Shown: positions 14,445 to 57,601 of the stretch, one piece after another | How the letters are laid out: each line of letters begins with the position of its first letter | How positions within the stretch are numbered: the stretch's first letter is position 1 | Source of the DNA: Methanopyrus sp. SNP6 | GTDB lineage: Archaea; JAADCQ01; Methanopyri; Methanopyrales; Methanopyraceae | Assembly: GCF_002201895.1 (NCBI RefSeq) | Contig: NZ_CP019436.1 | Span: 977,619-1,041,618, forward strand | Direction: 5' to 3' | DNA: 64,000 nt | The notes under the pieces: generated by a model | What the model was told of the DNA's origin: nothing | Database searches by the model: none | What the model saw: only the letters and a program-made list of their open reading frames with translations | Program-made: the position numbers and the translations under genes

Positions 14445-14459
14445 CCCCCTCTAAGGGGG
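14445..14459. promoter_or_regulatory. inverted-repeat double Shine-Dalgarno between uppS and the phosphodiesterase gene
   Basis: CCCCCTCTAAGGGGG. Read on the plus strand the GGGGG lies 6-7 nt before the ATG at 14467; read on the minus strand the other arm gives GGGGGTGA upstream of uppS. One of several such palindromes between divergent genes here. Confidence 0.5.
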
Positions 14460-14466
14460 ATTCACG

Positions 14467-14961
14467 ATGATCGGGATCTTGTCGGACACCCACGACAACC
14501 TGAAGGCCATCGAACGGCTTGCTAGAGAGCTGAACGAGGCGAACGTTGAGGTCGTACTCCATGCGGGTGACTACGTGGCTCCCTTCACCCTCCCTGTGCT
14601 CGCGAAGGTTGAGTGTGACGAGTTTATAGGGGTTTTTGGAAACAACGACGGCGAGCGTGACTATTTACGCGAGAAGGCGGAGGAAGTGGGGTTCGAGCTG
14701 GTCGGTGAGGTCTTCACGGGTGAGATCTTGGGTTTCCGAGTGGCCATGGTCCACGGCACCGAAGAGGCCGTAGTCGAGGCCCTCGCCCACTGTGGTGAGT
14801 ACGACCTGGTAGTTTACGGCCACACTCACGAACCGGATGAGCGCGTGATCGGAGACACGCTCGTGGTCAATCCCGGGGAGGTGTGTGGGTACGTCACCGG
14901 GCGTCGAACGGCCGCGCTGCTCGACCCCGATGAAAAGAAGGTAGAGTTCGTCGAGTTCTGA
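14467..14961 (+). CDS. YfcE/MJ0936-type metallophosphodiesterase
   Basis: 164 aa, ATG behind GGGGGA plus 6 nt. Calcineurin-like motifs in order: ILSDTHDN (4-11), HAGDYV (37-42), GNND (58-61), MVHGTEE and YGHTHEPD, which together bind two metal ions. Length and motifs match the small archaeal phosphodiesterases of the MJ0936 group, which act on artificial phosphodiesters; the natural substrate is unknown. It lies just upstream of the RNA methyltransferase gene and is divergent from uppS. Confidence 0.88.
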   Translation: MIGILSDTHDNLKAIERLARELNEANVEVVLHAGDYVAPFTLPVLAKVECDEFIGVFGNNDGERDYLREKAEEVGFELVGEVFTGEILGFRVAMVHGTEEAVVEALAHCGEYDLVVYGHTHEPDERVIGDTLVVNPGEVCGYVTGRRTAALLDPDEKKVEFVEF

Positions 14962-15036
14962 CCCGACATGCCCGATGAAGATCACGGCCTTCACCTGAGA
15001 CGTGACGAGATCCACCCGAGCTGAGGGGATACTCCT

Positions 15037-16290
15037 ATCCTCCGAAAGGCGGAACTCGATGACCCGCGACTCGCGCACGTACTCCGTGAGCGCGTAGCCG
15101 ACTACCCCTCGCTGCTAGCCGCCCTCCGAACACCGGTTCGGCGCTACACGCTCCGGGTTAACACTCTGAAAGCGGATCCGGAGGATGTCGTTGAATCCCT
15201 AGCCTCTGATCTTCCCGATCGAGAGGTTAGAAAGTCCCCTTACTCCGAGTACGCAGTCGAGGTTGAGGTGAAAGGACCGTACCCCGTAGAGAGGAACCAC
15301 CACGTCGTGATCGCTGACAAATTCGCGGCTGAGAGCGTCTACATGGGGGCGGATCTCTACGCTCCTGGGGTGGTGCAAGCGGATCCCGACATCCGTAGAG
15401 GTGACCGCGTGACTGTGATCTCGGAACGCGGGCACCCGGTCGCATCCGGTGAGGCAGTACTCCAGGGACGTGAGATGGAAAAACGGGACCGAGGTACTGC
15501 CGTTCGCGTCGATCGCTCCACCTTCAGTGCCCCAAAAATCCGGAAGACCGAAGCATACCGACGTGGTTGGGTGTATTCCCAAGGTCTGCCCTCCATCTTG
15601 GCCGTAGAGGCCCTGTCTCCGGAGCCTGGCGAAACCGTGGTCGACCTCTGTGCGGCTCCGGGTGGGAAGTGTTCTCACGTGGCTCAGATTACTGGCCCGG
15701 GGTCCAAGATAATAGCTATCGACCGCTCCGCACCACGACTTGAACGGATGAAAGCTCAACTCCGTCGCCTGGGTATCGACTGGGTCGAGACCGTACACGG
15801 AGACGCCAGGAAGGTCGTCAGGAGGCTGCGGGGAACGGCAGACGTTGTCCTCGTCGACCCGCCTTGCACCGCTTTGGGTGTCAGGCCGAAACTCTGGGTC
15901 GAGGCGACCTACGAGGAGGCACTCGGGCTACCGTCTTACCAGTATTCGCTACTCAGAGCCGGATACGAGGTCCTTAAGGAGGGTGGAAGACTCCTGTACT
16001 CCACGTGCACTCTCACGACCACCGAAAACGAACTCGTGGTCGAACGCGCGATACGGGAGCTAAACCTTGAGCCCGAGACGCCGGTGCTTCGACCAGCCAG
16101 ACGCTCAGGTCATGGCGCTGTCTTCCTACCCCATCGTGCGGATGTTCCTGGATTCTTCTACGCAGTACTCATTAAGGAAGGAGGGAGTCGACGTCGTGTC
16201 CGACGGTGTCATGAAGCGACGGGTAATACCGGCGATGGCGGCGGGTGTAGCCGTTGTCCTCATCATGATCTTGTCGTTCGATCCTCGTAA
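15037..16290 (+). CDS. NOL1/NOP2/sun-family m5C RNA methyltransferase with PUA-like insert; probable ATC start
   Basis: About 417 aa if it starts at ATC 15037; the first ordinary start codon (GTG 15268) would remove conserved N-terminal sequence such as YTLRVNTLKADPEDV. ATC 15037 follows GGGGAT and a 6-nt spacer. A PUA-like region comes first (about residues 75-150), then SAM motif VVDLCAAPGGKCSHVAQI, IAIDRSAPRLERM, catalytic VDPPCTALGVRP and YSTCTLTTTENE. The two Cys in PPC and TC are the family nucleophile pair. The target (tRNA or rRNA) is unknown. The tail past VLIKE overlaps the next gene by 95 nt and looks non-conserved. Confidence 0.85.
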   Translation: MLRKAELDDPRLAHVLRERVADYPSLLAALRTPVRRYTLRVNTLKADPEDVVESLASDLPDREVRKSPYSEYAVEVEVKGPYPVERNHHVVIADKFAAESVYMGADLYAPGVVQADPDIRRGDRVTVISERGHPVASGEAVLQGREMEKRDRGTAVRVDRSTFSAPKIRKTEAYRRGWVYSQGLPSILAVEALSPEPGETVVDLCAAPGGKCSHVAQITGPGSKIIAIDRSAPRLERMKAQLRRLGIDWVETVHGDARKVVRRLRGTADVVLVDPPCTALGVRPKLWVEATYEEALGLPSYQYSLLRAGYEVLKEGGRLLYSTCTLTTTENELVVERAIRELNLEPETPVLRPARRSGHGAVFLPHRADVPGFFYAVLIKEGGSRRRVRRCHEATGNTGDGGGCSRCPHHDLVVRSS

Positions 16291-38860: not shown

Positions 38861-39991
38861 ATCCGAGTAGGGCTCGTGATCCACGGTCCCACGGTTATCG
38901 ACACGGGATGGACAGAGCGTATCCTTCACTCCCTGGAAAGGCTAGGTGAGGTCCGTGCTAAGCTCGGAGGTACCACCGGTTACGTGGCGCTCTTAGATGC
39001 GAGGCTAGACTCCGTAGTGGAGTTCGATCGGAAGCTACCGAGCGAGTGCTTGTCCGATCTGAACGAGTGGGCCGACGTTCTAGTCCTCACGAACCACGGC
39101 AAAAGTCGGGAAAGCGGTCTCGCTTTCGCGGAACAGGTACTCTCCAGGGCCGAAGGCGTCGACTCGCTAGTACAGGTAGAGCGCCCGGGCGAGCCCGACG
39201 GTGGTATTGTCCTATGGAACCCTGACGACGTGGAGCGGAAGGTGGCTGAGCACCTCCAGAAGGATTTGGGGCTGGAGATCACCGAGGTTAGGACGGTTCG
39301 GACCGATAAAGGTGGCGAGACTGGAAGATCCCGTAGGATCGCCTGTGTCGAGCCAGGTGATCTCATTCTAGTGAACGGAATCACCGTAGGCGTCGCCGAG
39401 TCTCGGAACGTGGAGCTGGTGTTCGATGATAGTGGGTACTTGGTGGAGATCCGTGGCGGTAGGATCAAGCCGGAAGGCGTAGAGCGCCTCGGCCAGGTGG
39501 ATCCCGAGCGCGTGGTAGTGAAAACGGACCGCAGACTTAGGAGGACTGAGCCGAAGCGTAGGAGGGTGAAGAATGGACCCGCAAGGATCCGCCGGATTCT
39601 ACTCATCGACCACGACGCGGAGCGTAAGGTCGAGGATATGCGTCGATCGGATGCTGTCGTCTCCGTCGGTGACGATACGACTTGCGTGTGTGCGGAGCTA
39701 GGTGATCGGCTGGGAGTCTGGGTGATAGGGATCGTCGATCTCGACCCGGACGGGTGGGTTCGTGACGATACGCGCGAATCCCTGCGCGGCTCCGAGAACC
39801 TAATGGCTCTACTTGTGTGTGAGCGGGACGACGATGCCGGGGAATTGGTTCGAGAACGATTCTTTCGCGGCCGAGAGGTGAAGGTGCTCGATCCCCCCGT
39901 GACAGCTGGGGATCTCGTCGAAGAGGTGAAAGAGTGCGTAAAAGAGGTTCTCAAGTGCGTGTACCACAAGGCGAAAGAGACCTCAGCGTGA
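38861..39991 (+). CDS. DUF2117-like methanogen protein; probable ATC start
   Basis: 376 aa from ATC 38861, which lies exactly 6 nt after GGGGTC; this restores a complete first strand (RVGLVIHGP). The first NTG codon (GTG 38876) would cut it and has no Shine-Dalgarno at the right distance. N-terminal GPTVIDTGWTERIL, then a region rich in Val/Asp; the C-terminal half has VSVGDDTTCVCAELGDRLG and GIVDLDPDGW. The family is found in methanogens and has no assigned function (DUF number from memory). First gene upstream of mmp2-mmp3. Confidence 0.75.
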   Translation: MRVGLVIHGPTVIDTGWTERILHSLERLGEVRAKLGGTTGYVALLDARLDSVVEFDRKLPSECLSDLNEWADVLVLTNHGKSRESGLAFAEQVLSRAEGVDSLVQVERPGEPDGGIVLWNPDDVERKVAEHLQKDLGLEITEVRTVRTDKGGETGRSRRIACVEPGDLILVNGITVGVAESRNVELVFDDSGYLVEIRGGRIKPEGVERLGQVDPERVVVKTDRRLRRTEPKRRRVKNGPARIRRILLIDHDAERKVEDMRRSDAVVSVGDDTTCVCAELGDRLGVWVIGIVDLDPDGWVRDDTRESLRGSENLMALLVCERDDDAGELVRERFFRGREVKVLDPPVTAGDLVEEVKECVKEVLKCVYHKAKETSA

Positions 39992-40047
39992 GCTGGGTTC
40001 CTCACCACTCGGACCCGCGACTTCTCGTCATCGGTGGGGGTTCGGCC

Positions 40048-51555: not shown

Positions 51556-51820
51556 AGTGCCGACCCCGTTCGGTCGGACCGTGGCCCCCTCCTCACGAGC
51601 TCGGAGCCGGGGTGGTAAGCTCGTCATCCCGACACTGGCCCGTGTTCCGGGAAAGTGTATCCGGCCCGTCGGACGGCCGTTCATCCGCTGCGAGACGGCC
51701 GGTCACGGCCGCCGGGCGTAATTGTGCCGGACCGCAGCACGCCCGCCCTCATCTGTTCTTAGGCGGGACCGTCTCCTCGAGGGTAACTCCTCCACATAAT
51801 AATTGTCCCTTTAGACCCCC

Positions 51821-57448: not shown

Positions 57449-57601
57449 CCTCGGCTCAACGACGGGTCACGTGGTCCGTTCCGGTTATCCCTCGCTTAAG
57501 AAGAAACGCGATAGTTTCAGCTATGGCAGAGCCCCTTGGGGATGAGGAGCGAGGAACCCTGCAGAACGATCGGGTGAAGAGGGGTCGACTTACCGACCCA
57601 C

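Follow-up and report, generated by a model that had tools for sequence, protein, structure and literature searches.

Roughly 7% of the C/D sRNA genes in archaea overlap an open reading frame at its 5' end, and expression of the downstream gene is lowered (PMC7994747). Methanopyrus kandleri makes about 126 C/D sRNAs, mostly circular (PMC3695527), and the archaeal protein L7Ae represses mRNAs through kink-turn binding (PMC5539422). The archaeal NSUN6 protein PH1991 of Pyrococcus horikoshii is a tRNA m5C72 methyltransferase (PMC6393295). Here, we analyse a locus in a Methanopyrus genome where a predicted guide RNA abuts the gene for a predicted methyltransferase of this kind (coordinates in Table 1); "the window" denotes the whole stretch of DNA analysed, 64,000 nt long.

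Like archaeal C/D sRNA sR47 (RF01131), the guide RNA has four ordered boxes, two guides, a length of ~56 nt, a full-length match and similar C/D flanks; it differs in a score below the gathering threshold, a D' guide unlike the family consensus, and C and C' boxes that deviate at position 5. It is placed at the downstream coding start in the same way as other 5'-overlapping C/D sRNA genes (PMC7994747, after Tripp et al. 2017), where starts lie in or just after the guide RNA; unlike in those, the D box here is a stop in the downstream frame, which has no conventional start, whereas close relatives keep theirs. The overlap of guide RNA and gene start is of a known kind, here in extreme form. In PH1991, as here, a PUA domain is inserted before an RsmB/F-type catalytic domain, and the N-terminal lengths agree within one residue; PH1991 and its Thermococcales relatives have ordinary starts, whereas the methyltransferase in the window has none. 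L7Ae-regulated leaders (PMC5539422) likewise carry a kink-turn beside the ribosome-binding stretch; here, by comparison, the kink-turn is part of a guide RNA and its regulatory role is putative.

Table 1. Features of the locus in window coordinates, with the basis of each assignment.
Feature	Position	Strand	Basis
Upstream gene, presumably metallophosphoesterase-like (named by recognising its sequence)	14467..14961	+	ORF list; end 10 bases short of guide RNA
Predicted C/D box guide RNA, sR47-like	14971..15026	+	Rfam RF01131, box scan
C box ATGAAGA (ATGACGA in relatives)	14975..14981	+	box scan, relatives' alignment
D' guide, 11 bp with 23S rRNA ~nt 53	14982..14994	+	guide pairing
D' box CTGA (CCGA in G002, G003, G004)	14995..14998	+	box scan
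C' box GTGACGA (GTGATGA in G002-G004)	15002..15008	+	box scan
D guide, 10 bp with 23S rRNA ~nt 24	15009..15020	+	guide pairing
D box CTGA; TGA 15022-15024 is the in-frame stop of the methyltransferase frame	15021..15024	+	box scan, Rfam
GAGGGGAT: end of D box and 3' side of terminal stem; sole Shine-Dalgarno-like stretch before ATC	15023..15030	+	
Putative start codon ATC	15037..15039	+	inference
Predicted NSUN6-type RNA m5C methyltransferase (PUA and RsmB/F catalytic domain)	15037..16290	+	Pfam PF01472, PF01189; PDB 5zvd

A C/D box guide RNA in front of the gene

The window's genome (G000) was compared with four other Methanopyrus genomes, G001 to G004, of which G001 is the nearest. At 14971-15026, the RF01131 (sR47) model aligns from end to end (1-55; E 5.1e-6), with 30.9 bits against a gathering score of 40. 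Matches at the same locus in G001-G004 bring the total to all five Methanopyrus genomes, every score being below the gathering score. The boxes are ordered C/D'/C'/D with suitable spacing; C and C' each deviate once from the RUGAUGA consensus, at position 5, which is also variable among other Methanopyrus guide RNAs. The two guides target 23S rRNA sites less than 30 nt apart, in the register expected for guided methylation, and joint 23S matches within 60 nt were reached by 8 of 2000 shuffled guide pairs. Across the genus, guides and boxes have diverged much less than the flanks. On these computational grounds, 14971-15026 is a guide RNA of the C/D box class that would direct 2'-O-methylation at two neighbouring positions close to the 5' end of 23S rRNA. 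Its terminal stem has two invariant C-G pairs and a third pair that is C-G, U-A or A-U; with only 5 sequences, the covariation (score reached by 31 of 500 shuffles) is too thin to count. The in-frame stop TGA 15022 is its D box, and a D box CTGA at 15021 explains why a stop stands there. The D' guide stretch, GAAGATCACGGCCTTCA, recurs letter for letter elsewhere in G002 (L052:3096-3112).

A strict scan with canonical boxes recovered two of the four guide RNAs in the window, and the box rules were then relaxed. An unannotated C/D guide RNA candidate at 57542-57596 (plus strand; D box CCGA) is kept in G001 and G002; its D' guide forms 12 Watson-Crick base pairs with 23S rRNA at ~nt 1503, and its D guide 12 bp (2 GU) at ~nt 1536. 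Another candidate, at 51574-51627 (minus strand), has CCGA in both D and D' and is kept in G001 and altered in G002. The third, at 39983-40031 (minus strand), is sR28, in which C-box position 5 and D-box position 2 change together in relatives (C/U to G-C). These paired swaps suggest, at the level of sequence, that Methanopyrus either tolerates changes at the U-U pair usual in kink-turns or compensates for them.

The methyltransferase frame and its coding evidence

A preliminary description of this DNA, made from the sequence, had proposed a coding frame that opens after TGA 15022 and offers no NTG start before a distant GTG. The frame is as described, with the in-frame TGA at 15022-15024 and ATC at 15037-15039, and the first in-frame ATG, GTG or TTG after that TGA is indeed GTG 15268. 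Two in-frame CTG codons (15112 and 15166), dismissed there as unsupported, fall within conserved sequence and have weak upstream pairing.

The proposal that the segment upstream of GTG 15268 is coding is borne out by its codon-position pattern. Between 15037 and 15267, codon positions 1/2/3 differ from the G001 orthologue at 4/2/14 sites, so that 14 of 20 changes are third-position (binomial p = 0.0009), the same share as in the whole methyltransferase gene and in the window's median gene. At least 15 codons precede the first NTG in 18 of the 60 conserved ORFs in the 64,000-nt window, the set to which this uniqueness applies, and a coding signature in that stretch (4/2/16) is found in the methyltransferase alone. 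The translation matches profiles PF01472 (PUA; 2e-20) and PF01189 (RsmB/F; 4.9e-39) and aligns over 355 residues with P. horikoshii NSUN6 (5zvd, E 3e-71), including the catalytic cysteine motifs PPC and TC (DPPCTALG and YSTCTLT); by these matches, the protein is an NSUN6-type tRNA m5C methyltransferase. The segment 15037-15267 encodes part of the conserved RsmF/B ferredoxin-like and RRM-type region (PMC6393295). Automatic annotation would cut 77 residues off the protein for lack of a conventional start. At its other end (16183-16290, plus strand), the ORF is 35 codons longer in the window than in the G001 orthologue and overlaps the start of the next gene, probably through a lost stop.

The same evidence bears on two explanations that would do away with an unusual start. 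Pseudogene formation has been proposed as an outcome of 5' overlap with C/D sRNAs (PMC7994747), and the methyltransferase could be decaying in the window's lineage after a guide RNA invaded its start; we regard this as highly unlikely, given that the ratio of non-third- to third-position changes equals the median of the window's 60 genes, the frame has no internal stop, and the same arrangement is kept in G001. An NTG codon or frameshift hidden by an error of sequencing or assembly is close to negligible in probability. We found nothing in support of such an error, and G001, a separate genome, carries the identical TGA and ATC in the same frame amid silent and other nearby differences, which makes sequencing error very unlikely.

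Relatives and the candidate start codons

The five genomes differ in how the overlap can be started. G002 and G003 have CCGA as their D box, which yields the codon CGA and leaves the frame open back to an ATG inside the C box, the likely methyltransferase start in both genomes as read from the alignment. In G004, the spacing is different and the GTG-ATG of the C' box lies in the methyltransferase frame. The window's lineage has a one-base length difference between D' and C' boxes together with the D box CTGA, and these two changes close both upstream start routes. CCGA D boxes are also present in two other guide RNAs of the window, and in sR28 CTGA and CCGA interchange between relatives with a matching C-box change; a C/T change in a D box is therefore ordinary guide-RNA evolution.

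Two forms of RNA editing were considered and dropped. Methanopyrus edits tRNA C8, and C-to-U editing of the CCGA D boxes in G002-G004 was entertained on that background; CCGA boxes are widespread among the guide RNAs of Methanopyrus, and sR28 exchanges CCGA for CTGA. For an ACG-to-AUG edited start, the sole candidate is ACG 15005 in the C' box, which is out of frame.

The preliminary description had proposed checking whether orthologues begin with ATG or GTG at the position equivalent to ATC 15037. They do not: no NTG stands there, G002-G004 have TTC, and these three relatives appear, from their open frames, to start upstream within the guide RNA. A Pro codon precedes the ATC column in all three, and the four codons before ATC differ between G000 and G001 by only two changes, both synonymous and at third positions. 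Two silent changes are the pattern expected of translated sequence, but n=2 proves nothing; together with the relatives' Pro, they may point to translation from further upstream in the window's genome as well.

One such route would start at GTG 15002, in the C' box, and change frame on GGGG 15025-15028, by a -1 slip or by slippage of the RNA polymerase. No stop interrupts the GTG 15002 frame through GAG GGG, the four G's are retained in G001, and a -1 slip yields TRSTRAEGDTPILRKAELDDP, parallel to MRSTRAEVLTPFTRPDLDDP of G004, whose possible in-frame start at the GTG-ATG of the C' box is a precedent for GTG 15002; -1 frameshifting is known in archaea (PMC8211752). The likeness of the slip product to G004 is, however, accounted for by conservation of the DNA as guide RNA, GGGG is short for a slip site, no stimulatory structure was identified at the locus, and G002 and G003 have no need of a -1 slip, so that we judge this route unlikely. 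A start further up, at ATG 14968 or elsewhere, with TGA 15022 read as selenocysteine or simply read through, seems to us less probable still, at a chance of only a few in a hundred cases. Methanopyrus does make selenoproteins (PMC1242214) and ATG 14968 shares the frame of the TGA; against this, its role as a D box fully accounts for the TGA, G002 and G003 have CGA (Arg) and not Cys at the aligned codon, ATG 14968 is missing from G002-G004, and a gathering-threshold Rfam scan of the window returned no SECIS element (a tRNA and sR28 were the sole matches). Both the slip and the readthrough rank lower than a start at ATC, since each needs extra machinery for which nothing was found.

From the TGA to a conserved ELDDPR block, the frame offers just two near-cognate codons, ATC and AAG. 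Upstream pairing with the 3' end of 16S rRNA, with energies computed against the 16S tail GGATCACCTCC, is -8.1 kcal/mol for ATC and -3.9 for AAG, with -7.1 at GTG 15268 far downstream. ATC thus has the strongest upstream anti-SD pairing among the in-frame near-cognate codons, though the pairing is moderate, at a level that 11% of random positions reach. With its pairing and its place as first conventional start codon, GTG 15268 could be taken (as could CTG 15112 or 15166) for a start far downstream, which would give a protein without its N-terminal domain; this is decidedly improbable, because purifying selection on 15037-15267 equals that on the rest of the gene and the segment belongs to the conserved region named above. 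With ATC as start, 29 residues precede the LR[TE]PV motif (here LRTPV), the same number as in the Thermococcales-like L015 and within one residue (+1) of P. horikoshii NSUN6.

The geometry of GGGGAT six nucleotides before ATC carries less weight than it had been given. Said to recur in about half of the genes, the exact GGGGAT is found 5-7 nt before an ATG twice in the window, at 14456 (plus strand) and at the ATG 331 that had been quoted as an example (minus strand). When the motif is loosened to a GGGG core with its end 6-9 nt ahead of a roughly chosen start, ~20 of 60 genes have it, against a background of 1.4%. As a Shine-Dalgarno site, GGGGA before ATC is compatible with a start; its first two bases, which had not been read in this way, close the terminal stem of the guide RNA by pairing with the CC before the C box. 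Because the same bases belong to the guide RNA, the geometry is not strong evidence for a start.

An AUC start would be unusual. The factor aIF1 reportedly selects against non-canonical start codons, and only in elongation and termination has non-canonical decoding been demonstrated for archaea (PMC8211752); in a search of the literature, we found no AUC start described from an archaeon. ATC 15037 is nonetheless most likely the best remaining start of the methyltransferase, and we infer that initiation occurs there. The preliminary description, in calling this true coding sequence that lacks an NTG and ATC its best candidate, agrees with the arrangement conserved in G001 and with the N-terminal length; what it missed is the guide RNA behind the TGA.

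A guide RNA that may dictate the start of its neighbour

The explanation that we favour, with confidence somewhat above even, is that the D box of the guide RNA closes the conventional starts and that translation of the methyltransferase begins at ATC 15037, just after the guide RNA. The guide RNA occupies the spacer between the two genes, directly next to the methyltransferase gene; its D-box TGA stands in frame with the methyltransferase and, combined with the one-base change between D' and C', shuts off the starts within the guide RNA that are open to relatives. Initiation at ATC 15037 would be aided by the G-rich GAGGGGAT, which is also the 3' end of the guide RNA. Guide RNA and methyltransferase would lie on one transcript, maturation of the guide RNA would use up the stretch where ribosomes bind, and L7Ae on the C/D kink-turn could mask that stretch. 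Competition of maturation and L7Ae with the ribosome, combined with a weak start, would then keep methyltransferase output low.

More tentatively, at a confidence slightly short of even, we suggest that this archaeal gene is functional and fixed in two or more Methanopyrus genomes, and that it is AUC-initiated because a D box removed its conventional starts, with maturation of the guide RNA and translation mutually exclusive. If AUC is used, this would be the first natural non-NTG initiation in an archaeon, within the scope of one review (PMC8211752). Overlaps of C/D guide RNAs with 5' ends are known to be uncommon and to carry a cost for the gene downstream, and the five Methanopyrus genomes form a series of ways to handle such an overlap, with starts in the C box, in the C' box, or at no conventional codon: a conserved case of the start of one gene being constrained by another.
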